Positions 475 to 36,976 of a stretch of 64,000 bases of DNA are shown here, piece by piece. Under the pieces are notes generated by a model. It worked only from the letters and a program-made list of their open reading frames with translations, had not been told where the DNA came from and searched no databases. This DNA comes from Siphonodentalium dalli (Eukaryota; Mollusca; Scaphopoda; Gadilida; Siphonodentaliidae), in contig CP136065.1 in NCBI GenBank assembly GCA_032622095.1, forward strand, positions 207,616,151 through 207,680,150, given 5' to 3'. How positions within the stretch are numbered: position 1 is the stretch's first letter; each line of letters begins with the position of its first letter. A program made the translations under genes and the position numbers.

Positions 475-1320
475 TTTTGGGGAATTATGGCCCTGGCTCC
501 ACCCCTATTTGACCCAGTGACCCCATTTGAACAAATCTGAACCCCAGTCATTCAATGACCCCTCATACCAAATATAAACTAAATCGGCATAATGGTTCTT
601 GACAAGAAGTCGTTATAAGAATTACCAAGGAGGAATATAGTTATGGCCCTGGTTTCGCAACTGTTTGACACAGTGACCTCATTTGAACAAATCTGAATGA
701 CAGTCACCTAGAGAACATCCACACCAAATACGATCAAAATGCAAAAATGTAATTTTTTGGTTTTTAGAGTTATGTCCCTGGCTCTGCCCCTAATTGACCC
801 AGTGACCCAATTTGAACAAATCTGAACCCCAGTCACCCAAGGTCTCTCTGTACAAAATATAAGCTAAATCGGCCAAATATTTTTTTAGAAGAAGTCATTG
901 TAAGAATTACTATGAGTTATGGCCCTGGTTTCTCAACTAATTGACCGGGTGACCTCATTTGAACAAATCTGAACACCAGTCACCCAAGGACCCTCCATAC
1001 CAAATATTAGCTAAATCGGCACAATGGTTATGGACAAGAAGTCGTAAGAATTACTGTGGAGGAATAGAGTTATGGCCCTGGTTTCACAACTATTTGACCC
1101 AGTGACCTCATTTGAACAATTCTGAATGAGAGTCACCTAGGGAACATCCACACCAAATATGAACCAATTCGGTATGATGGTTTCAGAGAAGAAGATGTTT
1201 TTAAAAAAGTTGACGGATGGACGGACAGACGGCCAGACGGACAGACGGACGGACGCACGGACGGACAACGGACGAGGAGTGATGACTATAGCTCCACCGG
1301 AGACTTCGTCTCAGGTGAGC
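475..1320. repeat. Tandem array of ~145-bp units with a GGAC-rich end
   Basis: About five units start with (A)GTTATGGCCCTGG at 481, 638, 769, 911 and 1068. Each carries GACCCAGTGACC and TTTGAACAAATCTGAA. The array ends in a (GGAC)n-like tract (1206-1266) and a small hairpin (CCGGAGACTTCGTCTC). The plan resembles the second array type at 7620-9300, but the unit is different. Confidence 0.85.
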
Positions 1321-1479
1321 TAATAAAAATAAAAGGCCGCCAGATCACACATGTTCCTCAAGTAAGGTGGCTTTATTTGATGGGTGACTTTTTTTAGAAA
1401 TGAAATTTTTTATTCTGGAAACAATCTTTGAATCAAACTTTGCTTCCAACTATCTATGTTGTTAACATATTTCATTAGA

Positions 1480-1945
1480 TAAAGGGGCATATTTGTCAGT
1501 CCATACCGAAATTCGAACTTGACCTGAACTTTCATGCGATTAACCCACATACTAAATTTGAAAGAGCTCTATTGGATAATCAAAAATTGAGTTATCATCC
1601 GGCAGCCTTTGAAATTAACTACAACAAAAAGCAATGCTGAAGAAAAAGCCGCAGAAGCCAATGTAGAATTTAATGCAATTTTAAAGAAATGCCATTGAAT
1701 AAAAATGTCAATTTCGAGGGCTGATCGATCCAAACAACAAAATAACCAACAAATTCAAAGGGGCATAACTCTGCCAGAAATGGTTGGATCGGATCCAAAT
1801 TCGAACTTGACCGGGACTTTGTCATATGAAGGCCACATACATAGTTTAATCAAATTCTGTCAAATACTATTCAAGTTATCATCCGGACAACAAACGTTTC
1901 GGACGGACAGACAAGCGGGCAGAAAGATAGACAGGCATACACTGC
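1480..1945. repeat. Two degenerate units of the 'CATAACTCTG ... ATCCGG' repeat
   Basis: Contains GGGGCATA, TTCGAACTTGACC, CCACATAC and TTATCATCCGG in the family order. It ends in a GGACGGACAGACAAGCG tract. It lies in ASAH1 intron 11. Confidence 0.7.
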
Positions 1946-2040
1946 TCATTTCTTATTCCCCCAAAAAAACATTTTGAGGTCAATAACTGCTGTATTTGGA
2001 GAATTGTATTACTAAGCGGGAAGTTTGTCACTGTACTCAC

Positions 2041-2208
2041 CTTCTGATTCATTGATTTCATGCATTTATTAGCTGGAGTTCTTCTATCATCAATAATCAT
2101 CGGGTTCTTCCAATGATCATAGTTGGTTTCCAAAACATACCATCCATGTGCTTTTTCCATTGGCCACGAGTCAACTAGTGATTCCCTGGCTCGGGTTTCA
2201 ACAGTACC
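2041..2208 (-). CDS. ASAH1: ASAH1 exon 11 (NYD and DDRRTPA motifs)
   Basis: A 168-nt phase-0 exon, acceptor TTTCTTTCACAG, donor GTGAGT. It encodes [32 protein letters not shown] and [13 protein letters not shown]. Asn of NYD and Arg of DDRR are active-site residues; Cys of KCM is the partner of the alpha-subunit Cys. The next exon is not found between 1 and 2040, so the gene continues off the left edge. Confidence 0.95.
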
Positions 2209-5200
2209 CTGTGAAAGAAAAAAAATTAATTATAAGTAACTCATCATTTGCAGAAGCTAAAGTGAGTTGAAAATGATGTAGAAGCCTTAAGATGTAACAT
2301 GAAAAACATAAAATGGCATCAAAAATTCTGATTCGTTACTCTACTCTGAATATATATTCATGTTGTCACAGTCAAAGTAAGAGATTTCAGCTGAATCATG
2401 TCATTTTTGAATATAAATATTTAAAAGAAAATAATGAAAACTAGATACTGTATAGGGCCCTGCGAATATTAGAAATTCTATTCGATGTCGATATCGCTGG
2501 TGTGATTCGGTGTCGACATTGAATCGGACATCCAATTCGACTATTTTCGTCTCCGGAGGTCAAAGTTAACAAGTAGGATCTATTTTTAGCATATGACTCC
2601 AGTCTGGGAATTCCCAAAATAAAATGGCAACAGGTCGTTACCGAATCGCAGGTGCGAGAACTAATTAAACACTCACCCTGGATACAGACAATACGTAGGT
2701 TTCGCACAGTAGATGGATTGGATGTATCACGTATGTTTTTTTTTAACACAAGAACTCGCTATTTATCAGTAACTTATGGGAAGTTCGTTGACAAAAAAGG
2801 GCGTCTGAATGTCTGCATCGTCACCAGATCCTAACTCTATAGATGACATGGCCACAAAACAATTCTTAAACACGTAGTTGCACTCAGAATAAATGAAATT
2901 AAGCCATAATATGTTGATAAAAAATTCTCGCACTCAGCTGTCGAATGTTTACAACTGGATGCTACTTCTCAACTTTGACCTTTTACCGGCTTTTACCGGT
3001 GGGTTGGATAAAAAGCTAGGAATCGGACCAAATGGAACCATCGGCCATCTTGAAAATCGCGAACCAGTTATAAGGCTTTTTGAGAACATTTTAGCAAATT
3101 TTGAGCAGGGTAATTATGAAATAGGACTGATGTATCTGCGATATCTGTTGCAATGCGCATGTTGTGTTATAGTATCAGAGGCTGGTTTCTTTTGGATTGA
3201 CAATTATTTTACAATTTCATATCTCTTATCCTATGTTGTATATTGTTTAATCATACTCATGTTATAGTTTACAAAAACCTTGTTAGATATTACAGTTCTA
3301 AACTTTGTGTCATAATTTCAAAATACTAAAGTGGGCTGCCGGGATGAATGTTGATTATGTTGTGCCAGCTAAAGCGGGCTGCCATGTTGAAAGAGTTAAC
3401 AGTCTTTAGTTACAGACACCATTAAAGTGAATGTGAATTTGATCAATAATCTTCATACAGATAAAGCACTCAGCTTCATGGTGGCTATCTGCCAAAGCTT
3501 AGGCCCACTGTTTAAATTTGTATTTAATACACAAACTAGGTTGAAGTGTTTTGCTAACAAATCAATGAGGTTGTTTAGAACAAGTGTGACTATGACAAGA
3601 CTTTTTTAATTCCATAGCAAAACTGATTTATTATTATGATTCTCAATAAGAGTAAAATATGCCTGTGGTAATTCCAACAAAGGGCTATAACTCTGGCGGG
3701 TGGAACCAAAATTTGTACTTGAACTGTATTTTTTGAGCTAGTTCAGTTCAGACTTATGTTATCATCCGGAAAAGAAAATTGAATGCAAATTCCAACAAAA
3801 GAGCCATAACTCTGTTAACAATTGGCAGGCGGAATCCGAATTAGAACTTGATCTGTATTTTGTGATATTAAACCCACATATGTTTTTGCACTTAAGTACG
3901 GTGTGCCACAGGGGTCTGTGCTTGGACCCATGCTCTATGTGATCTACGTCCTACCGCTGGGGGACATAATCCGTCATCATGGACTGAATTTTCACTTTTA
4001 CGCGGATGATTCCCAAATCTACGTTCATTTCAACCCTGGTTGTGAGATTCCAGCCAGAGAATCCCTAGAGCACTGTGTATCCGATATTAAAATCTGGATG
4101 ACTGATAATTTCCTTAAGTTGAATCCTGACAAAACTGAACTGATATATATCGGGTTACCGCATCAGTTGCAGAAAGCAACTACCCACGATATTGTGCTTG
4201 GAGATAGTGTAGTCTCTAAGTCGACTATGGTCCGCAACCTGGGGTATATAATGGATGACAATCTATCTGCGGAGGCGCATGTAATGCAAGTTTACAGATT
4301 GGCATATTGTCACCTGAGAAATATCAGCAGGGTGCGAAATGTGGTCGACGAAGAGACGGCCAAACAACTCGTACATGCATTTATCACAAGCCGTATAGAC
4401 TACTGTAACTCACTTTTATTTGGTTGCAACACATACCTTATTCGGAAACTTCAGCTTGTACAAAACTGTGCTGCTAGGATTGTTACCAAAACAAAGAAAT
4501 TTTATAACATCACTCCAATTTTAGCTAAATTACACTGGCTTCCCGTTGAGCAGAGGATCCATTTTAAGGTCTTGCTTTTCACTTATAAGTGTTTAAATAA
4601 TCTGGCACCATCGTACTTGTCGGATCTCATTCAGCGCTATCAACCCGTCAGACCCCTCAGGTCCGCCAAGGCAAATCAACTTGTCTATAAACCTGGGGAT
4701 CTGGTTACATGCGGTGATCGCGCTTTTTCTGTGGCTGGCCCAAAGCTGTGGAATCTACTTCCTGATCACTTAAGGATTCCACAAACCATAAATGAGTTCA
4801 AATCCGCACTTAAAACCCACCTGTTTGAAGTGGCATTTGGTCCTCGGCCCACATTGCGTAAAGTTAAGAAATAGCCGCAGTTTATGTTGTATATCTGTAT
4901 TGTGTTGTATATGTTTTATGTGTATATTGTTAAGCCCGAGAGCACATTTGTGGAGTCGTGACTATAAACCTTATTATTATACCAAATTTCATTCCATTCA
5001 GTTGAGACTATCTAAAGTTATTAACAGGAAACTAGAAGTGAACAGACGGCTCGACAAACAGACCAATAATATGATAAGTTGAATTTTTTTTAATCGGGCA
5101 TATAAAAACTTTTAGCGCTATGTGATCACATGACATTTTCATCTACAAGATAAAATCGAGATGAAAAATCCCAAATATTACAAATTGTATACTATTAAGT

Positions 5201-29200: not shown

Positions 29201-32200
29201 ATTGACTAAAAAAAAATTTGTTTTTAATTTCTCGTCCGCGGGAATAGCGATGAGGCGGGCGTTTACCTGCCACGAAAATTTGAGTTTAGGTGGCCGATGA
29301 CATGCGGGGGCATCAGAATGACAAGCCTGCTGACTGACAGTTTATAACTGGATATAATGTAGTCATTGTAATTTCGAATTTATCATGTCTTTACCTGGGT
29401 GCAATATAGGCCGCATATATAAACGATTAATCGACTAACCGTCGACTATAACGGTCGATTAGTCGATTATAAAAACTCATAGTCGTGGCAACCCTAGCCT
29501 AAATCATGAACCATAAGCCTAAAAGACATTGTTTATTCTTGCTTCATGTTCCCTATTTTACTACGGCGGAAGTCCCATTATTTTGCGATGAAATTCCCGT
29601 TTTTGGATGTTTGATGTGCTTTGTGAGCATGCTTTACACATTAATTAACTTAATTATGCTAATGACTCATTGAATTAAATTAATGACTGCAACTAATAGA
29701 AAATGGAATTTGATTTTGCTATGTTTACCTGTTTCTTGACTTTCTGCCTTCAAAGGCACACCCTTTCGGTATTATTCACAGTTTAGTACATCTATGTACA
29801 GGTTAAAAATTCTGTTAAAATATCAGTGATAATTAAGATCATCCATGGGCGTCACCCAACGACTTGGTTGTCAATTTGAGACCATTATATCTTTCTATGT
29901 GTAGGTTGTAGCATAGTCTACGTGAATGGAATTGGAGTAGACCGATCTCTTTAGCTGGTGTGGTACCATTATTATTATTACCGTGATATATTTCCAAATA
30001 GTAGAGATGGGCGGTTGTGAAAATTTGCCTCGGTTTCGGTTTTGGTTGTGGAAAAAGAGTTGAGTCTCGGTTTCGGTTTTTATTAATAAAAATGACTAAT
30101 GTGAACAAAATCTAATTATGCTTCATCATATTACAAAGAAAACACACCAATTTTATTACCATAACTTGTGAGGTACATGTCCTTTTATAATTGTAAATTA
30201 TGTATCATATTGTTACTATTACATGTATATTGTTAATGTCCATGTCGAGTGGCAGTGCTAGAATGCAAGTGAGTCTGTGTATTGTGTATGACTGCAATTC
30301 AGCATCATATGATCATAAGTGTGAAATAATATAATGATCATTTATATTGGCATAAAACTAATGTGTGTGACTAGATATATGTGTATAGTTATGATTTGAA
30401 AAATAAAATTTGAAATAAACAAATGAAAATAAAACATGACTAGAGTCTCTCAATCACATTATCTGGCTATATGCCTATTAACATATTTAGGGAACATAAT
30501 ACTGTACACACTATACATGCATCCAATACAAGTCACCTGAATGAGTGCTATTTCTCAACAGTTTACCGACAAACGGTATAATTCATTCCGGCTCCGATTC
30601 CGGTATAACATTTTTAATCAACGGCGCACAAATATATTTGACGATTTAACATCCAAACAGTGATAAAAACTAATAGGGAATGCGGGTAACAATCATTGAT
30701 ACCTTTTGATATCGTATCCGCGTTATCAAATTCACCTTTCAGAGTATTTGTACGGCCTTAATGATTAAAAGATCATGAGAAATAAACTGACTTGTGACAA
30801 GTTGTGTTGTGTTTACTACGGCGAAAATAGGTGTACACGGAAGCAACGTAATTAATTCGTCGCGCGATTTCACCATGCGAACTCCTTTCTGCATATATTA
30901 CAGGCGGCACACTTAATTTCTTATCTTTCTTTGAAAAATATTTCCACACAGGACTCGTTTGTTCGTCGTGCTCTGCCATGATTACAGGAAGTTGTGACAA
31001 CCGAAACTACGGGTTTTTCCAACTTACCACGGTTGTCATTTCCGGTTTTTCCCGACAACCGAAACCGAACTGATTCCACGGTTAACCGCCCATCTCTACC
31101 AAATAGGCCCATTGCTCTTTTGTGGAAGCCGACATCCACAAAAGAGTGCATGGAATTTTTCCAGGTGGCACGAAAATAAAACCCGACGCGGACTAATTTT
31201 GCAAAATGAATAAAATGAAAACCGTCGGGAGATCCGGCGGGTCACGGGAAACACAGGTCTTTTTTTTGTTGGCCTAAGCCTATATTGAGCTAAATTTTTA
31301 ATGTGATTTCAGTCTGTCCATTCAACGCCTAACTCGAAATATCAACATGCGTTTTAATTGCACTGGATCAACATTAAACATTGAGCTTCACAAAAATACC
31401 TCGCGCTCATCAACTCACAACAGTCTTGATATAGGACTTAGTGAACGTTTAATTGACGACCACGATACAATCGTAAGTGGAAAGATTTCTGTAGTAGGAA
31501 GTAACCGGTAGTTGGACTGCGCATGCTCACATCAAAATCGTAGGTAAAAAAATAATATCAAGCACTGTTTGATTTTAGATGCGAAATCGTGGCGTATCCT
31601 TGGTTACTTTCACTTGCGACGTAATCGCAGTCTTGTGTATGTAAAAATAGTAGCTGGAAATAACCGTAGGGTAATACAATAGCTGTATTCAGCTAACCTA
31701 GCTGTATTCAGCTATATATTATACTGGGCAATTCCACGTGACTGACATTAGGCCTAACAAAATAATACCTTTGTTTCCGCTAACGAGCTAAAAAAAAATT
31801 AGGGTAGGTAGGTAGGCTTAACTTCTTTTTTTTTTGTTAACTTTTTTTTCTTTCAGTATCTTTAAAAATAACTGTATAATACTTGTCAATAACCCAAACT
31901 ATGCACTTCTTAGCCCCAATCAGGTTAACCCAGATGACAGAGGAACTAGAAACTCCAATTCAATCTTACATATGCTTTAATATTTACATATATACTAGTC
32001 TATATACTAAGATAGTCTAATATTTCCTATATGGTCTGGCGACAACTGGAGTCAGTCCAGCACCACTGCACTGTTCACATATTGGAGTGACCGTCTTGTA
32101 CCGATCTCTTAAGGATGGCTTCACAACACCACCTTCTCTGCATTCAGTGAAGGATCTAGGTATTTTTTGGGGACACCTGTTTTTGGGCAATGATATGCCG

Positions 32201-35200
32201 AAGGCATAACCTGAAGGCCTGATCTGAGGAATGTTTGGGAAGGGTGACCCCCTGATGATGGTGGGGGTTCTTCCCCTGGAAAAATTTTGAAAATCCATTG
32301 CATTTAGAGCTAATCTAAGGCTCTTTGAGTCAGTATTTTGAATTTTACAGAGAGGTCAATTTTATCAAGTTTCTCAAGCATAACTTTTTATATATGTATG
32401 GATTGGAAATGCTTATAAGTTATTGTCAGATATCTTTTGGTTCTATGGATTATGCTTATCGGAAGCCTTATCCTGCTTGAAATTAGACTTGCCATCATCA
32501 CTCTAATTCATAAATAGGCTATTTTATAAAATTCAAGTGAGACACATGCCGTACATAATATACTACATGTACATGTAATACAGAAATCCTACATGTACAT
32601 GTAGTACAGAAACAATGTACATGTATTAAGGTAGTAATGACTATATATGGTACTAATCTCTATGTTAATTTTTCATTTGGTATTATGAGATCCCACTTGT
32701 TGATTTGATCAAATTGTTAATGTTCCTATGCTGTAATTGATTGAAATACTGAAGTCTGAACGCTGAATGATAACATACCGTACCTGAACTCAAATTATTT
32801 GAAGTTTTCACAGATGAAAGCTAGATAAAGCCAAACATACTTTACAGTATGATTCCAACTGTTAAACTTAAATCTTTTTGTAAACTTAAATTTCTTATGT
32901 CAATATATATAAATATATAAATGTTTTGCATCTTGTTATGATATGAATTGGGACCTAAATTAAAAAAAATATATATTTAAATAAAATATTTTTTTATTTT
33001 TATTTTTTTTTTGGTCCAATTTTTTTTTTTTTGCAATGGCAATAAAACGTTTAGGGTCGGCGGTTTAAAATAGGGTCGGTCGGGTTAGCGGAAACAAACG
33101 TATTTTTTGTTTAGGCCTTACATTCAAAGAACTTTTTCCAGATTCATTGTGATGATACCAGCAACATGTATAAATATATCAACTTATTTCTATGTGTGAT
33201 GTTGGCTTGTGCCAGGGTGCACCCAAAAATGTGCATTATTTTGAATTTAGTCAAGCGATGATAAAATGGCATCGTTCAATGTTAGCGTGACTGACATTAC
33301 ATGAAAATATCAAGGCACATTGCCAACTTGTTTTCAAATTAAATTTGTCTTAAATTTACAGAAACTCATATGAATTTATTTGTTAATTTTTCGTGGTAGA
33401 TATTTCAAGATAATTTACAAGCAAAATTTAAGCTTAGAACTATAATAAAATATTTTTTGTTATCCAAATTATGCGTGACTGACATTACACTAATTTCGTG
33501 ACTGACATTACGCTATGAAATATATCAAGTATTTCCAACAGTTTCTGATCCAAATGAGTAATTAGTGCCCTACAATCATATTTTATGGGGTTTAAATGCA
33601 TTTAATATAGTTTATTACCATATACTGCACATGAACATGACATTGGCTAATGTAAGCGTGACTGACATTACACAAAATTATCCAAGATACATGGTAACTG
33701 GATTTCAAATATAGGTTGTTTTACATTCGAATAATTTAATATGAACACCTTTTTCAATTATTATGGACAGACTAAGTCTGTGACTGATATTATTTTATTG
33801 AATTTGTGCAAGACATTAGCCTATGGTATGAACAAATTCTCAAGTACCTTTTGCACAAGTTTTTCAGACAATACCGTTCGGAGACCGGGATAATGGGAGT
33901 TGGTTTTCGTAGGTTGTCTTATACTTTGGCAAACATTTTCAACAAATATGTCATGCATATGACATTTCAGTCGTATATTTCACATCAAATCTATGTTGAA
34001 ATTTCCCTGGTACAGTTTGTTTACCAGTATTTAGTGAGATATATTTAGTTTTTATACAAGTTGAATAAATAAATAAGTGGATAAGAATCGTCATTGTATG
34101 GCAGCCTCCCGAGAAATATGATAGCATAATACTGGGACTTTCTCGTAGAAGTTGAACAAATCATTACCACAACAAAAGTCTGAGCACACTGTTTACCTGG
34201 GAACATGAATTTCTGAATATATAACCTACCGGTAGCTGATAATTTTCAGCCCACTTGTAGTTAGGGCTGTCACAATGCGGAAGTTCATGTTGCAATGCAC
34301 TTCCCAATGTTTATGCTTTGATGGGGTGTGAACCACGATGCACAATTGCTACATTGTAGTTGTCACTATATCTATGAATTAATTAGCCTCGTTCAGGCTC
34401 ATTGTAGGGATCAAGTTGTCCAAATGGTAACCAATCTGATTCATGCAATTAGGAAGGGTAAATTACCTACTAACTTTCTCTTTCTCATTGATGAAATTGA
34501 TGTCACTCTTGGAAATAAATGTTGAGAAACTGAATTCTTGAGTGTTGTTAGAAAGCATTTGATGAGTTTTTATTCAAAAGTGTGCTTTTCATGTATCACT
34601 TCAGACATTATGATGCGATGCATTGACTAAATTGCGATGCATTGAAATCATGATGAATCGTTGCAGCCCCATTTGTTGTTGTAATCCAATTACTACATGT
34701 AGTATGTTTTCATACAAGATTTTTATGTCATCTACCAGAATAGGAACAAATTGCAAAACGTGACTGACATTACATGCCGTGACTGACATTACGCGTGACT
34801 GACATTACATATTTCAACTCTTGCTAGCGGTCAACTTAGACATCGAATGGTGTTTATTTTGAACACAGACATTGAGGCTCATGTATATTGAGCGTCTCTA
34901 AGATATGGTTGTTATATTGTCATGCAATATTGTTTTATAACAAAAATGGTGTTATTTTCGTGACTGACATTACATATAGTATGTAAATTTCTGAAAACTG
35001 TTTTTCCCCAAAAGGACATCAGTCACAGAAATATAAACCCAAAATGTGTTAGAGCGTGCATGAACCTACTTAAATACTGAAATACTACAGGCCAATCTTA
35101 AATAATTGTTACTATTTGCTCAATTACTAACAAGCCACTTTTTGCAACAATTTTAGAAGCACATGTGGGTTAACAATGTCATAAGCTTTCAGCACTATAA

Positions 35201-36976
35201 TGATGAATGTCAGAGAGAGAAAAACTGTTTTCAATAACTTGAATACCATAACTTTCAGATTTTCAAACTGTTTAGTCAATATTCAAGATTTAATTTTTTC
35301 ACAAATTTCTTTCTCCGTCGTGGAATTGCCCTACTCTCAAACCGGATGTTTTTCGATAATAAACTAGAAGCGCTAATTTGCGCATCAAAATTAGGCTACC
35401 ATATTCTCCGGTCACCCTCAACCAAATGAAAATCGTCGCTTGTGTTCTGACAAAGTGTTGCTTTTTGTCGACACGGCAATTCTGATTTTGTGTGAAAACT
35501 TACTACGGTGGTCGATGTCAGTAAATATTCTGGGGACTATTTTCTGCAAATGCATTCATTAACTAACTTATAAAATAAAGATCAAATTCATCCCAAACAC
35601 TCGTTTACTTCTTCCCGATGCTAAACCGGTAGGGGGCGTTAGAATGGTGTACCTATATCAAGCATTTAGAATTACATACCACTAGCGGTTTGTGAGCGAT
35701 ACTGGTAACTATTCATAACTGTATATACAGATATTGTGCGCATATTGCAAATGTATGGCACAACATAGGGACAACTGAAATGAAAATGCGACTTATATTA
35801 TTTCTGAAGTATTTCAAACATGAAGTCCTGGTCGTTAGCGAGTCAGAACTATTCAATCTGTTTTGGCGGGAAAATATATAATGTGTGAAAACTTTATACT
35901 AAACATAACATTGGTATTTGTATTTTCGCGATTCGACATACAAGTATGCGTTTCCGTATTTTTGGAGAGAATCAGCTCAAGCAGTGAGTGGAACTCGCTC
36001 GGTTAAACTCTGGCTAGAGATGTTCCCCTTTTTACATGTTTTAACGCAGCAACCAAACTGCGTTTTAGCAGCATCATATTGATCCTCCGGGAATGATTAA
36101 GATGTTCCATCTTCGGTGATAAATATTGTATTTAATGTATTTTTCAAGGTATTCCGCATTGCATAAGAGAGTTATTAACCGTTATGACCGACATCGACCG
36201 TCGTAGTAAGTTGTCACACATAATCACCATCGCCGTGCCGACAAAAGGCAACACTTTGTCAGAACACAAGCGACGATTTTGATTTGGTTGAGGGTGGCCG
36301 GAGAATAGGGTAGCCTAATTTTGATGCGCAAATTAGCGCTTCTAGTTTATTATCGAAAAACAGCCGGTTTGAGAGTATAATATATAGCTGAATACAGCTA
36401 TTGTAGCTGTATTCTCACATTTATTTACTAGTAGATAGACTATGACTATGACTATGACAGGTCAGGGAGAACCCAAAATCGATGTACTAAACCTCGATTT
36501 GTGTAAACAACCTCGATCGAGGATCTTCGAGAACATGTGATCACTGGTGATATAGTGTGGAGTATTTTATCTTACACCTATGAGAGGCCAAATTCACAAT
36601 TAATTATTAAATGTGAATTTGGCCTCCCATGGGTGTAAAAGGAAACACTGTGAAATACTCCACACTACCGTAGCCTATATCACTTACACTACATTACTTC
36701 CATTAGTATCATATTTGGTTTAGAGTGTTTCCCCTTATATCATGGGTGTATGTTTTGACCAGTGGTCACATGGTCTCGAAGAACCTCGATCGAGGTTTTT
36801 AACACAAATCGATGTTTAATACATCAATTTTGGGTTCTCCCTGACCTGTATGAGTGACATAATTTCTTGTTCAAGTTGTTATATTGATATATACTATAGA
36901 ACACAAAACTCACATCATTTGAATATACTAAATTTACGGCGTAGATGAGAACCAAAATTTGGACAACGTTGGACAT
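2041..36976 (-). CDS. ASAH1: Acid ceramidase (lysosomal N-acylsphingosine amidohydrolase), 11 coding exons, 3' end outside window
   Basis: Joined exons: 36976-36914, 25069-25032, 20351-20267, 17180-17085, 15675-15597, 14315-14241, 13518-13473, 10401-10257, 6113-6059, 5427-5261, 2208-2041. They give 339 continuous codons. Every intron is GT-AG and every phase matches. Family knowledge: a lysosomal Ntn-hydrolase that cleaves ceramide to sphingosine and fatty acid, made as a precursor that cuts itself before the nucleophile Cys. Seen: a hydrophobic signal peptide (1 to ~19); Cys24 and Cys332, matching the disulfide linking the two subunits; nucleophile Cys136 in [11 protein letters not shown]; Arg152 and Asp155 in HARNLDFG; Asn312 in TNYDHW; Arg325 in DDRRTPA. 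These are the expected active-site positions. The RNLDFG...GWDV stretch favours acid ceramidase over the related NAAA. About 50 residues remain to the left of the window, given the usual ~395. Introns range from 0.6 to 11.8 kb and are filled with transposons. No frameshift or stop is seen, so the gene looks functional. Confidence 0.95.
2209..3659. other. ASAH1 intron 10, left part: no gene recognised
   Basis: Near 2455 the sequence AGGGCCCTGCGAATATT resembles the end of a hAT-type element, but no partner end was found. An open frame of 124 codons at 2893-3267 has no recognisable motif and no splice context, so it is not called a gene. AAAG(T/C)GGGCTGCC occurs twice (about 3330 and 3373). Confidence 0.5.
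3660..5090. repeat. 'CATAACTCTG' repeat unit split by a LINE insertion
   Basis: Two partial units run from 3660 to about 3885. The unit resumes at 4979 (ACCAAATTTCATTCC) and ends at the GACAAACAGACCAATAA tail near 5080. The LINE sits exactly where the consensus CCCACATACCAAATTT would be continuous, so it inserted after the array. Confidence 0.75.
3897..4980 (+). pseudogene. 5'-truncated CR1/L2-type LINE: reverse transcriptase C-terminal half
   Basis: An open frame runs from the RT motif [10 protein letters not shown] (3897) to TAG at 4872-4874 (about 325 codons). Seen: [12 protein letters not shown]; the catalytic YADDSQIY box; [14 protein letters not shown]; and the C-terminal [10 protein letters not shown] and [13 protein letters not shown] blocks common to CR1/L2/Rex-like elements. 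The endonuclease and the first RT blocks are missing, as is usual for 5' truncation during target-primed insertion. The tail (4880-4980) has TTAAGC...GAGCACA...ACTATAAACC and an ATT microsatellite, typical of these LINEs. The long open frame suggests fairly recent insertion. It lies antisense in ASAH1 intron 10. Confidence 0.9.
5261..5427 (-). CDS. ASAH1: ASAH1 exon 10
   Basis: A 167-nt exon, acceptor TTTCACTTCCAG, donor GTACGA. It encodes [17 protein letters not shown] through [16 protein letters not shown]. The [10 protein letters not shown] stretch is typical of the family, and NSTN supplies a glycosylation sequon. Confidence 0.94.
5502..5990. repeat. Three tandem ~165-bp units ('ATCCAAGATGGC' repeat)
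   Basis: AAATC(C/A)AAGATGGC occurs at about 5539, 5673 and 5837. GGGATGTGGCCTG, GGGTGTGC and GATAGCTCCCATC-like blocks repeat in the same order. The array fills most of ASAH1 intron 9. Confidence 0.8.
6059..6113 (-). CDS. ASAH1: ASAH1 exon 9
   Basis: A 55-nt phase-0 exon, acceptor CTCTTTCAG, donor GTAATT (the weakest donor of the gene). It encodes [18 protein letters not shown] and one base of a Gly. The TINERF motif is conserved in the family. Confidence 0.93.
6191..6590. mobile_element. Family B two-hairpin MITE, copy 1
   Basis: Ends TTAACCCTTTACCCAACA / TGGGTAAAGGGTTAA are inverted; a TTAA target duplication is likely. Inside are two ~74-bp near-perfect hairpins (about 6222-6292 and 6369-6438), each made of CCAATGCATTCTCTTAT...GCGAG arms. 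The second is the reverse of the first. Near-identical copies are at 19824 and 58279. Confidence 0.9.
6634..6735. repeat. Short foldback hairpin (102 bp)
   Basis: Arms CAATAGTTGACTGTTCT...TTCTCCTCG and CGAGGAGAA...AGAACAGTTGACTGTTG pair around an ~18-bp loop. It begins 43 bp after the family B copy. Confidence 0.8.
6736..7419. other. ASAH1 intron 8 segment, nothing recognised
   Basis: A+T-rich sequence without repeat signature or coding potential that I can see. Confidence 0.5.
7420..9300. repeat. Long tandem array of ~170-bp units with GGAC tracts
   Basis: About nine units carry GGGG(C)CATAACTC, TTCGAACTTGACCTG, ACCAAATTTG and GTTATCATCCGGA in order (starts near 7660, 7831, 8052, 8220, 8393, 8564, 8737, 8922, 9080). 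GGACGGACGGAC tracts occur at 8880-8905 and 9222-9248. The array ends with an inverted GTCCCCC...GGGGGAC pair (9265-9290). The left end shares AAAATAAAAGGCCGC with the array at 475-1320. Confidence 0.85.
9301..9739. other. ASAH1 intron 8 segment with C/T-rich tract
   Basis: Contains a CTCTCTCCCTCTTACTCGCTC-like pyrimidine-rich stretch (about 9395-9460). No gene or mobile element seen. Confidence 0.5.
9740..10145. repeat. Dispersed repeat R1, copy 1
   Basis: Homologous in the same orientation to 63330-63745. Shared blocks include CTTCGGGGGTAAAAAATATT, GTTGAACAAAATGTTGATAA, AGTTGAC.GTGGTTAGCATT and TGATATGGG. No terminal repeats were found, so the class is unknown. Confidence 0.8.
10257..10401 (-). 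CDS. ASAH1: ASAH1 exon 8
   Basis: A 145-nt exon, acceptor CTATTTTAG, donor GTGAGT. It encodes [17 protein letters not shown] through [11 protein letters not shown], a beta-subunit core segment. It contains one N-glycosylation sequon (NNT). Confidence 0.95.
10487..13240. mobile_element. pogo/Tigger-like DNA element (TA-flanked) carrying a nested hAT
   Basis: Inverted ends CAGTGAAACCTG(C/T)T... at 10487 and 13240, each bordered by TA. This is the usual form for Tc1/mariner/pogo elements. GCGACCACC blocks recur near both ends. No transposase is readable. The inner part (about 10770-12870) is homologous to 45990-48990, where a different outer element surrounds it. A hAT element at 10971-12255 interrupts that inner part. 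Confidence 0.75.
10971..12255. mobile_element. Non-autonomous hAT element hAT-1, TSD ATTCCATA
   Basis: Ends TAGAGATGGGCGGTA and TACCGCCCATCTCTA are perfect inverted repeats. The 8-bp direct repeat ATTCCATA flanks the element (10963-10970 and 12256-12263), the hAT signature. Subterminal regions are rich in CGGTATCGGTA. No transposase frame is seen in its 1285 bp. Confidence 0.93.
13241..13472. other. ASAH1 intron 7 remainder
   Basis: Unremarkable A+T-rich intron sequence between the pogo-like element and exon 7. Confidence 0.5.
13473..13518 (-). CDS. ASAH1: ASAH1 exon 7
   Basis: A 46-nt exon, acceptor TTATTTTCAG, donor GTATGT. It encodes [14 protein letters not shown] with a split Gly at each end. 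Arg and Asp of HARNLDFG are the expected substrate-pocket residues. Confidence 0.94.
13652..14070. repeat. Dispersed repeat R2, copy 1
   Basis: Homologous in opposite orientation to about 26745-27195. Shared blocks: ACGGACATGGC, TTTCTACCATATCAG, CTTTCTGGGACATA and TATTTATCGACCT. No terminal repeats identified. Confidence 0.75.
14241..14315 (-). CDS. ASAH1: ASAH1 exon 6 (catalytic cysteine)
   Basis: A 75-nt exon, acceptor TTTTTTTCCAG, donor GTTAGT. It encodes [12 protein letters not shown] and then [12 protein letters not shown]. The Cys is the Ntn-hydrolase nucleophile. In the family the precursor is cut just before this residue, which then becomes the N-terminus of the beta subunit. Confidence 0.95.
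14504..14867. mobile_element. hAT-type MITE hAT-M, TSD ACCGCTAG
   Basis: Ends CAGGGGCGCCGGAAG and CTTCCGGCGCCCCTG are perfectly inverted. The 8-bp TSD ACCGCTAG is intact at 14496-14503 and 14868-14875. It is 364 bp, G/C-rich at the ends, with no coding capacity. Confidence 0.95.
14868..15198. other. ASAH1 intron 5 segment, nothing recognised
   Basis: A+T-rich intron sequence; no repeat ends or exon signals seen. Confidence 0.5.
15199..15327. repeat. Foldback element related to 37660-38240
   Basis: Left arm ATAATAAATAGAAAATCTAGTG...GAGTGGATA and right arm TATCCACTC...CACCAGATATCCTCTATTTATTA pair with few mismatches. The TATCCTCTAT.TATTA end recurs at 38217-38235. Confidence 0.75.
15597..15675 (-). 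CDS. ASAH1: ASAH1 exon 5
   Basis: A 79-nt exon, acceptor TTTCCAACAG, donor GTAAGT. It encodes [17 protein letters not shown] and VAKATGMPL plus one base of the next Gly. It corresponds to the segment before the catalytic Cys in the family. Confidence 0.93.
15990..16395 (-). repeat. Dispersed repeat F, copy 1
   Basis: Reverse complement is homologous to 42750-43120. Shared blocks: AATTTAAAGACATA, CTTATTCGG, AGGCATTATG, CCATAGAAAACAT and ATCGAGAGTCA.TGCATT. Class unknown; it fills much of ASAH1 intron 4. Confidence 0.75.
16764..16991. mobile_element. Near-perfect 228-bp hairpin MITE with TACAGT ends
   Basis: Starts TACAGTCATGCC and ends GGCATTACTGTA. The arms (about 16764-16880 and 16885-16991) match almost base for base around GCTCTCACTGAGAGC. 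The TA borders fit a Tc1/mariner-type foldback. No coding capacity. It lies 93 nt inside ASAH1 intron 4, with a G12-like run at 17020-17031 between it and exon 4. Confidence 0.93.
17085..17180 (-). CDS. ASAH1: ASAH1 exon 4
   Basis: A 96-nt phase-0 exon (32 codons), acceptor CTCTTTATAG, donor GTGAGT. It encodes [17 protein letters not shown] and [15 protein letters not shown], which matches the helical alpha-subunit segment of the family. Confidence 0.92.
17181..17742. other. ASAH1 intron 3 segment, nothing recognised
   Basis: A+T-rich intron sequence without a recognisable element. Confidence 0.5.
17743..17810. repeat. Short palindrome
   Basis: ACAAGTCCAGTAAATTAGGTCTAGACC pairs in pieces with GGTCCAGACCTGATTTACTGGACAAGT around a 13-bp loop. 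Confidence 0.75.
17811..19239. other. ASAH1 intron 3 segment, no gene recognised
   Basis: A T-rich tract at 18318-18345. Short open frames on both strands (for example 18620-18847 and 18741-18983) overlap each other and lack splice context or motifs. Confidence 0.45.
19240..19322. repeat. Tigger-like terminal sequence with local hairpin
   Basis: TATAAACCGAACACC and GGTGTTCGGTTTAGAGAGG pair locally; the right side ends in TTTTACTGTA. Reversed, this reads TACAGTAAAACCTCTC, the form of a pogo/Tigger end. The other end of the element was not found. Confidence 0.5.
19824..20181. mobile_element. Family B two-hairpin MITE, copy 2
   Basis: Same ends and hairpins as the copy at 6191 (same orientation). 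It is shortened by a ~40-bp loss between the hairpins (after AAAAAATGG near 19970) and a small loss near the right end. It ends 85 nt from the donor of ASAH1 exon 3. Confidence 0.9.
20267..20351 (-). CDS. ASAH1: ASAH1 exon 3
   Basis: An 85-nt exon, acceptor GTTTTTCAG, donor GTGAGT. It encodes [18 protein letters not shown] and then [10 protein letters not shown]. The VNLDLPP..RW motif is a hallmark of the acid ceramidase alpha subunit. Its first base completes the Ser codon begun in exon 2. Confidence 0.93.
20630..20843. mobile_element. Family C two-hairpin MITE, truncated copy
   Basis: CAACCCTTCCATGACTGGA start and CCCATCATGAAAGGGTTA end, with the ATATATAAGAGAATGCA core repeated. Part of the first hairpin is deleted near 20655. 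Confidence 0.8.
21029..24594. mobile_element. 3.6-kb DNA element with ~480-bp terminal inverted repeats
   Basis: Left end CTCTAGTAGCTGAGGGCG and right end CGCCCTCAGCTACTAGAG are inverted and bordered by TA. The inverted arms extend about 480 bp (21029-21512 and 24117-24594) with few differences. A ~75-bp block (ATTATGGGGGGTCAGTAATA...) is repeated within the left arm at 21268 and 21511. The 2.6-kb interior is A+T-rich and has no readable transposase, so the copy is non-autonomous. TA borders suggest the Tc1/mariner group. Confidence 0.85.
24870..24962. repeat. Family D palindrome, single copy
   Basis: GCAGAATGAGGTCCCCAGAG on the left pairs with CTCTGGGGACCTCATTCTGC on the right; the arms are ~43 bp. 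The flanking TCAGGCTTG near 24983 matches the family's outer end, so this is the right half of a two-palindrome MITE. It lies 69 nt from the donor of ASAH1 exon 2. Confidence 0.85.
25032..25069 (-). CDS. ASAH1: ASAH1 exon 2
   Basis: A 38-nt exon between a TTTTTCAG acceptor and a GTGAGT donor. It encodes [12 protein letters not shown] plus two bases of a Ser codon. It carries the N-terminal Cys that pairs with a Cys of the beta subunit, and the YPPP motif typical of mature acid ceramidase N-termini. Confidence 0.9.
25230..25615 (+). pseudogene. LINE reverse transcriptase C-terminal fragment, frameshifted
   Basis: Frame 1 (to 25430) has [13 protein letters not shown] and frame 2 (from about 25410) has [16 protein letters not shown] and [19 protein letters not shown]. 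Together they form the 'KYKYLG ... ILTYGSEIW ... FCK.LLG' region found after the RT domain of many invertebrate LINEs. One frameshift near 25400-25420 separates them. It lies in ASAH1 intron 1. Confidence 0.8.
25751..26210. mobile_element. Foldback element with ~200-bp inverted arms
   Basis: The left arm (TGGAGGGTTTTGTTCAAGTG...AATATGACACAAGAC) and the right arm (GTCTTGTGTCATATTCATC...CTCTCCCATTACAGGCATTGCA) pair over ~200 bp each, including AGAGACAT.TAACGAGCC against its complement. No clear target duplication was found. Confidence 0.75.
26176..26339 (+). other. Possible exon of unknown origin
   Basis: An open frame between a TCATCCTTTCAG acceptor and a CAGGTAAAT donor reads [16 protein letters not shown] and [17 protein letters not shown], a protein-like composition. 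The start overlaps the foldback arm at 25751-26210. I do not recognise the product. Confidence 0.25.
26340..26744. other. Intron segment with long G-run
   Basis: A run of about 16 G near 26427-26442; otherwise A+T-rich with no feature. Confidence 0.5.
26745..27195. repeat. Dispersed repeat R2, copy 2 (inverted)
   Basis: Reverse-complement homologue of 13652-14070: TCGATAAATA, TATGTCCCAGAAAG, CTGATATGGTAGAAATAA and GCCATGTCCGTTT in matching order. Confidence 0.75.
27596..29496. mobile_element. hAT element hAT-2, TSD GCCTAAAT
   Basis: Ends TAGGCTTGCCACGA and TCGTGGCAACCCTA are inverted with two mismatches. The 8-bp TSD GCCTAAAT is intact (27588-27595 and 29497-29504). Subterminal CGATTAATCGACTAA blocks occur at both ends. 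Inside, a 22-bp unit (ATACCATGCCTGGAAGTAAA) is duplicated at about 28556 and 28580. No intact transposase is present in 1901 bp. A CAG/GTGAGT-like donor on the minus strand near 27785 may be a relic of a transposase exon. Confidence 0.93.
30002..31098 (-). mobile_element. hAT element hAT-3 with BED-finger remnant, TSD CCAAATAG
   Basis: Ends TAGAGATGGGCGGTT and AACCGCCCATCTCTA are inverted; the TSD CCAAATAG is at 29994-30001 and 31099-31106. On the minus strand near 30980 a short frame reads [18 protein letters not shown], the start of a BED-type zinc finger. The finger continues in another frame as [11 protein letters not shown] and then hits a stop. The rest of the transposase is absent. Homologous, in opposite orientation, to the ends of the element at 46215-48415. 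Confidence 0.93.
31751..33117. mobile_element. Nested PIF/Harbinger-like element, TSD TTA
   Basis: Ends GGCCTAACAAAATAATAC and the inverted GTATTTTTTGTTTAGGCC, followed inward by TTGTTTCCGCTAAC / GTTAGCGGAAACAA. The TTA at 31748-31750 and 33118-33120 restores the motif GTGACTGACATTACAT once the insert is removed. A 3-bp TTA duplication with GGCC ends fits PIF/Harbinger. No transposase is readable. A fragment on the minus strand (32298-32120; [12 protein letters not shown]) belongs to another common repeat. Confidence 0.8.
34262..34671. mobile_element. Probable decayed hAT MITE inside element J
   Basis: TAGGGCTGTCACAATGCG at the left and CGTTGCAGCCCCA at the right are imperfect inverted ends of the TAGGGCTGCAACGAT type. 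The interior has GCGATGCATTGA subterminal repeats. Flanking octamers match only in part. Confidence 0.45.
35334..36375. mobile_element. Nested element L with ~190-bp inverted ends, TA-flanked
   Basis: Ends CTCTCAAACCGG and CCGGTTTGAGAG are inverted and bordered by TA (35332-35333 and 36376-36377). The arms extend about 190 bp (to ~35525 and from ~36185) and include CTAGAAGCGCTAATTTGCGC and its complement. The element splits the right end of element J. It shares the CTCT start and TA border with the element at 21029-24594. Confidence 0.88.
36458..36848. mobile_element. Foldback element M: palindrome within a palindrome
   Basis: Ends CAGGTCAGGGAGAACCC and GGGTTCTCCCTGACCTG are perfectly inverted. 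The arms run ~65 bp through AACCTCGATCGAGG and are flanked by TATGA on both sides. A second hairpin lies inside (about 36553-36667; GTGTGGAGTATTT...AAATACTCCACAC), with GAGGCCAAATTCACA arms at its centre. It lies 65 nt from the donor of ASAH1 exon 1. Confidence 0.85.
36914..36976 (-). CDS. ASAH1: ASAH1 exon 1 (start codon, signal peptide)
   Basis: Twenty-one codons from ATG at 36976-36974, ending at a GTGAGT donor (36913-36908), phase 0. The peptide begins [14 protein letters not shown] and continues NLVYSND: a short polar start, a hydrophobic core and a small-residue end, as in a secretory signal peptide. It joins in frame to exon 2 ([11 protein letters not shown]), which begins phase 0. It was chosen because no other minus-strand ATG exon between 25070 and 38700 gives a hydrophobic leader with a phase-0 donor. 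Transcript data would be needed to prove the join across the 11.8-kb intron. Confidence 0.8.

Follow-up and report, generated by a model that had tools for sequence, protein, structure and literature searches.

Site positions of a subterminal 14-mer array recur across families of a probably Sola-type transposon group in the scaphopod Siphonodentalium dalli

Why should a 14-nucleotide word recur, always on the same strand, inside an element that has no transposase-like reading frame of its own in a coding-potential check? The question is raised by a locus on contig CP136065.1 of Siphonodentalium dalli (assembly GCA_032622095.1), analysed here as a stretch of 64,000 nucleotides (the window), in which GTGACTGACATTAC occurs in eight exact copies, all on the plus strand (sites 2 to 9 in Table 1), together with a copy matching at 13 of 14 positions, which a nested element interrupts, and another matching at 12 of 14. 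All copies lie between 31738 and 34973, and at up to three mismatches 16 matches were found versus 6 in shuffles. The array to which an earlier note on this DNA had drawn attention is thus real, and that note was also right about the three copies packed into 34760-34808 and about the C that precedes most copies.

Three nested layers at the locus

The earlier note had drawn the boundaries of the array-bearing element at 31679-36402, which is one level too wide. The window holds three nested layers, namely an outer element with long TIRs, an inner transposon inserted in it, and a 1,367-bp insert within site 1 of the array; the sites are confined to the inner insertion and are not spread over the whole outer element. 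The inner transposon measures 3,606 bp with the nested insert and 2,236 bp without it. Its first site, which was said to follow directly on the terminal word, does adjoin the 5′ TIR, at element position 13, and is complete once the nested element is skipped (GTGACTGACATTA followed by C). The nested element is PIF/Harbinger-like; it has GGCC ends (GGCCTAACAAAATA), and a similar stretch is apparently also present in L068, a copy of the L065 element introduced below. The outer element has TIRs of at least 191 bp that are 93% complementary, and its ends read AGCTGTATTCAGCT.

Table 1. Features of the window copy and of related elements (positions in the window unless an element or length is named)
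Feature	Position	Strand	Remarks
Outer long-TIR element	31679-36402		host of the transposon insertion; inner transposon sits in its left TIR
Non-autonomous DNA transposon copy	31726-35331	+	TIRs, 4-bp TSD, copies elsewhere
Left TSD	31722-31725		TACT
Right TSD	35332-35335		TACT
5′ TIR	31726-31737	+	GGGCAATTCCAC, 12 bp
3′ TIR	35320-35331	-	GGGCAATTCCAC, inverted partner
Nested element	31751-33117		1,367 bp; TSD TTA (31748-31750 / 33118-33120); TIR GGCCTAAC...; splits site 1
Site 1, first 13 bases	31738-31750	+	14th base C at 33121, past nested element
Site 2	33287-33300	+	element position 192
Site 3	33475-33488	+	element position 380
Site 4	33498-33511	+	element position 403
Site 5	33658-33671	+	element position 563
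Degenerate word	33780-33793	+	GTGACTGATATTAT; outside the part aligning with the autonomous element
Site 6, 3′ triplet	34760-34773	+	572 from 3′ end
Site 7, 3′ triplet	34779-34792	+	553 from 3′ end
Site 8, 3′ triplet	34795-34808	+	537 from 3′ end
Site 9	34960-34973	+	372 from 3′ end
L065	element 692-4780		TSD ATAT; TIR GGGTCATTCCATGC; word GTGACTGAYGCAAC; transposase about 48% identical
L066	4,953 bp		TSD TTTT; TIR GGGCGATTATTTTG; word GTGTTGTACGGGACAT; transposase 31-34% identical
L067			TIR GGGCGATTCTACC; word GTTACGTGCGTTACAT; transposase 31-34% identical
L069 (JAAEPJ010000558.1)	4-kb contig		in bacterial MAG assembly; TIR GGGCAATTCCAT; word GTGTTGGACGTAC

Copies, full elements and transposon class

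The genome searched comprises nine sequences with a total of 2.2 Gb, in which the 14-mer has 1,261 matches versus 36 for a reversed control. Of the first 100 matches listed, 95 fall into 18 clusters of at least two, none of them mixed-strand, with recurring spacings of 16, 19, 23, 160, 165, 179 and 188. These clusters bear on the idea that the repeats come from a satellite or minisatellite which a mobile element has picked up. In its favour, some matches to GTGACTGAYGCAACA elsewhere come in triplets spaced by 44 bp; however, the spacing of the array is not tandem and those 95 of the first 100 listed matches form dispersed, one-strand, element-like clusters, so that such an origin is extremely improbable. 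The triplets themselves, built on this word of L065, were seen at G000:C1:191549957-191550059 and at about ten similar places, and are perhaps a separate small family.

Exact 26-bp 5′ ends of the window family number 83 and exact 22-bp 3′ ends 85, and pairing them gives length classes near 2.2, 2.6-2.7 and 3.1-3.2 kb. Its copies, inserted at various sites, have TSDs of 4 bp (TACT, ATGA, TTTC, TGAA and TATA), a few with one mismatch; copy L003 and the related element L069 are without a clear TSD. These termini, TSDs and further copies bear out the reading of the locus as a DNA transposon that carries an array of several sites. Between copy L002 and the window copy there are 4 differences in 2,214 positions (99.82% identity), a near identity that makes movement recent, and the window family is, to judge from its copies, a recently active cut-and-paste transposon. 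The 3.1-kb non-autonomous copies, which also carry a filler segment, look like internal deletion derivatives because they keep the last ~50 codons of the transposase gene as a C-terminal remnant. A version of about 0.48 kb with the 5′-arm sites only is found at L041, L050 and L058, and since the flanks of the three are identical, they go back to a single insertion that was duplicated afterwards and not to three separate jumps.

Full copies with a coding region, for which the earlier note had proposed to search, do exist. One (L064) is 6,368 bp long and its transposase gene has one in-frame stop; the other, a 16.5-kb copy (L062/L063) formed by the longest end pair, has one frameshift in the gene, and because both genes are broken, no intact transposase source is seen for the window family. 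Both have the TSD TACA, and in both the word and the gene are on opposite strands. In L064 the sites stand 13, 192, 380, 403 and 563 from the 5′ end and 571, 552, 536 and 371 from the 3′ end, matching the window copy within 1 bp, and in the 16.5-kb copy all nine follow one another in that order too, on either side of the inserts that it carries. L061 was rejected as a further full copy, its long ORFs belonging not to the element's gene but to a Ty1/copia retrotransposon that interrupts this window-family copy. As to other content of the full copies, about 9 kb inserted in the left arm of L062/L063 form a large palindrome whose two arms carry repeated ORFs, among them one for a C2H2-finger-like protein, and upstream of the transposase gene (L064:5208-7081) a sequence recurs about every 510 bp, as it also does in the 16.5-kb copy.

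The element had been described as one that could not be classed, and here one can go further, since the 4-bp TSD and a putative DDD-type transposase place it probably in superfamily Sola, most likely Sola2, by TSD, TIRs and Asp motifs. Sola2 elements have a 4-bp TSD and short TIRs of 12-13 bp (PMC3627910), to which the 4-bp TSDs found here (the five above, TACA twice, ATAT and TTTT) and the TIRs of about 8-14 bp, in the four families of which both ends were read, are alike; unlike those of Sola2, the TSDs here are not confined to AWWT. An alignment of a small number of sequences from four families shows invariant QxD, DGPSS and GKGxxDGxGG motifs, which mark a putative triad. A DDD triad is reportedly what the original description of Sola leads one to expect. 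The transposases have no Pfam match and no PDB relative, and the literature searched on Sola gave no array of comparable kind.

Several other classes were considered and rejected. In Academ, an XPG-type nuclease domain is often present and the TSD is 3-4 bp; the TSD fits, but the transposases here, of about 690 aa, have no XPG domain. Against hAT stand a TSD of 4 bp instead of 8 bp (the length also left by Hermes) and the lack of any BED finger or Dimer_Tnp_hAT match in Pfam. PIF/Harbinger, which suits the nested element with its TTA, does not suit the array-bearing one, whose TSD is 4 bp and not the 3-bp TWA. The TSDs are not TTAA, as piggyBac and Kolobok would have them, and Ginger, with a 4-bp TSD and an integrase-type rve domain, was set aside for want of an rve match in Pfam.

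One geometry, several words

A protein search with the transposase found 125 related places in the genome, from which three further families (L065, L066 and L067) were read; transposases of the related families are 30-50% identical, and the transposase reading frames of L065 and L069 are unbroken. To these comes L069, whose contig is probably animal DNA, likely host contamination of the bacterial MAG, and which has no close DNA match in the S. dalli genome; in viral contigs no relatives were found. In each case the family word came up as the leading repeated k-mer of its locus, and word counts against the reversed control were 345:1, 84:1 and 62:4. Complete elements carry 7-10 words each, of 13-16 bp, reaching about 580 bp inward.

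The words differ and their places recur. In every family the first site abuts the TIR, and counted from the 5′ end in L064, L065, L066, L067 and L069, respectively, it stands at 13, 15, 15, 14 and 14, the second site at 192, 181, 183, 192 and 183, the third at 380, 379, 372, 380 and 371, and the fourth at 403, 393, 395, 402 and 392; a site at about 563 is found in L064 and L066. In the 3′ arm (leaving out L067, whose 3′ end was not found), a single site stands 371, 373, 376 and 377 from the 3′ end in L064, L065, L066 and L069, and the triplet lies within 532-579 bp of it in the same four. Additional L066- and L067-family copies, checked by coordinates, show identical steps, and simulated random placement reaches the observed closeness with P ≤5e-6 per family. 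Spacing in the window, which the earlier note had called irregular, is not so, because the site positions recur in other families and agree there within about 12 bp; the geometry is common to a transposon group and is not an irregular one-off array.

It might be argued that this likeness comes through a common ancestor only and that the array is a functionless inherited structure, given that the transposases are homologous and that a 97-bp unit with one site is duplicated inside the window-family element at 78% identity. However, the spacers have turned over, standing mostly at shuffled identity between families (26 comparisons, most with z<2 and three near 3), and yet their lengths have stayed the same to about a dozen bp. 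The word, moreover, differs family-wide at all sites together, and chance placement is as rare as given above. We therefore regard bare inheritance as very unlikely.

The transposase gene runs against the word in L064, L066, L067 and L069 and with it in L065 and its copy L068; since the gene is flipped there and the array unchanged, the array is independent of gene direction. In every family, most of the sites, in the 5′ arm as in the 3′ arm, share one direction along the element, so that those near the 5′ end face inward and those near the 3′ end outward. The strictly one-sided orientation remarked on in the earlier note holds for the window family and L065, in which all sites point one way, and fails as a rule of the group: it is a family trait, because L066, L067 and L069 each have one 3′-triplet site inverted.

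What the array may bind

Two kinds of protein could be thought to read such an array. A host transcription or chromatin factor might bind the word, with the array regulating the element's expression or silencing, and it is true that GTGACTGAC has TGAC half-sites, of the kind bound by host bZIP or nuclear-receptor proteins, and that in most families the transposase gene lies downstream of the 3′ arm. This is nevertheless unlikely, as one host factor whose specificity is fixed does not fit four families with four words and one geometry in one genome, the site positions of L065 stay fixed while its gene is inverted (which uncouples the array from any promoter), and the array is kept in non-autonomous copies that have no working gene. 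Since the word varies by family and the positions do not, the binding protein is most likely one that differs from family to family, and the transposase is the best-supported candidate.

Our reading of the locus, which we hold to be probable, is thus that of a non-autonomous transposon mobilised in trans by the family's DDD-type transposase, for which the 14-mer would be a putative docking site at set distances. Rare full elements (L064, 6.4 kb, and the 16.5-kb copy with its own insert) would supply the enzyme, which may dock on the family-specific 14-mer, in the 5′ arm at the TIR-abutting site and then at about 190, 378, 401 and 563 bp, and in the 3′ arm at a single site about 372 bp from the end and at a packed group of three 537-572 bp from it. 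Several transposase units at these distances could assemble into a large, asymmetric complex able to distinguish one end from the other and to bring the TIRs to the catalytic centre, where cleavage and insertion would leave the 4-bp TSD; the sites would then be needed for transposition.

In copies that are 6-10% off L064 in their flanking sequence, the nine sites are mostly intact, with 251 intact words versus 109 expected from flanking divergence, a comparison in which the copies share ancestry and are not independent, the lineage being the fair unit. By lineage, the 126 bases of the sites are unchanged, against an expected change of about 6% for the window lineage and 10% for that of L004/L005. 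Per-column conservation within non-autonomous copies does not mark out the sites, and because four of the nine are no better conserved there than ordinary stretches, site constraint rests on the comparisons between lineages and between families; weak conservation within copies is as expected if selection acts on source elements alone.

Known systems offer partial parallels. Near the asymmetric ends of Tn7 and CAST lie several transposase sites, oriented and set at defined spacing, and they extend far less inward than those described here. Such ends, with TnsB sites (PMC10201428), are bacterial and served by a separate protein family; the likeness is of working only. In the hAT element Hermes, a transposase BED domain binds subterminal repeats that are asymmetric between the ends, and about 220 bp of each end are needed in cells (PMC10368747). 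The elements here likewise have subterminal repeats that are asymmetric between the ends, with binding known for Hermes and proposed for them; unlike the 4-bp words of Hermes, many per end and read by a BED finger, theirs are of 13-16 bp at fixed positions.

Subterminal repeats in transposons are thus already known. What is of interest is that the geometry is kept to about a dozen bp, often to 1-2, despite changed words and spacers and a flipped gene, which suggests that distance itself is selected. The five pairs of enzyme and word offer a test set for how a new DNA specificity may evolve while a complex keeps its shape, and they bear as well on whether nucleosomes join in end recognition. 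In practice, a word abutting the TIR and repeated at +170-180, +188 and +22 is a signature by which members may be spotted and classed in raw sequence.

There is a hint in the steps near 180-188 bp, which are close to the nucleosome repeat, and a periodicity test on nine positions favours about 180 bp (P about 0.002). We tentatively raise the possibility, doubtful as it is, of a molecular ruler at rough multiples of 180-188 bp from each end, with a complex built on nucleosome-wrapped ends that measures nucleosome-sized steps; were this true, enzyme and word would change together while the geometry stays. As for the part of the enzyme that might contact the word, an AlphaFold2 model of the L069 protein made without an alignment is poor (mean pLDDT 36), and within it the first 70 residues contain helical blocks with pLDDT 62-78; the N-terminus is rich in basic residues and is a candidate DNA-binding part.
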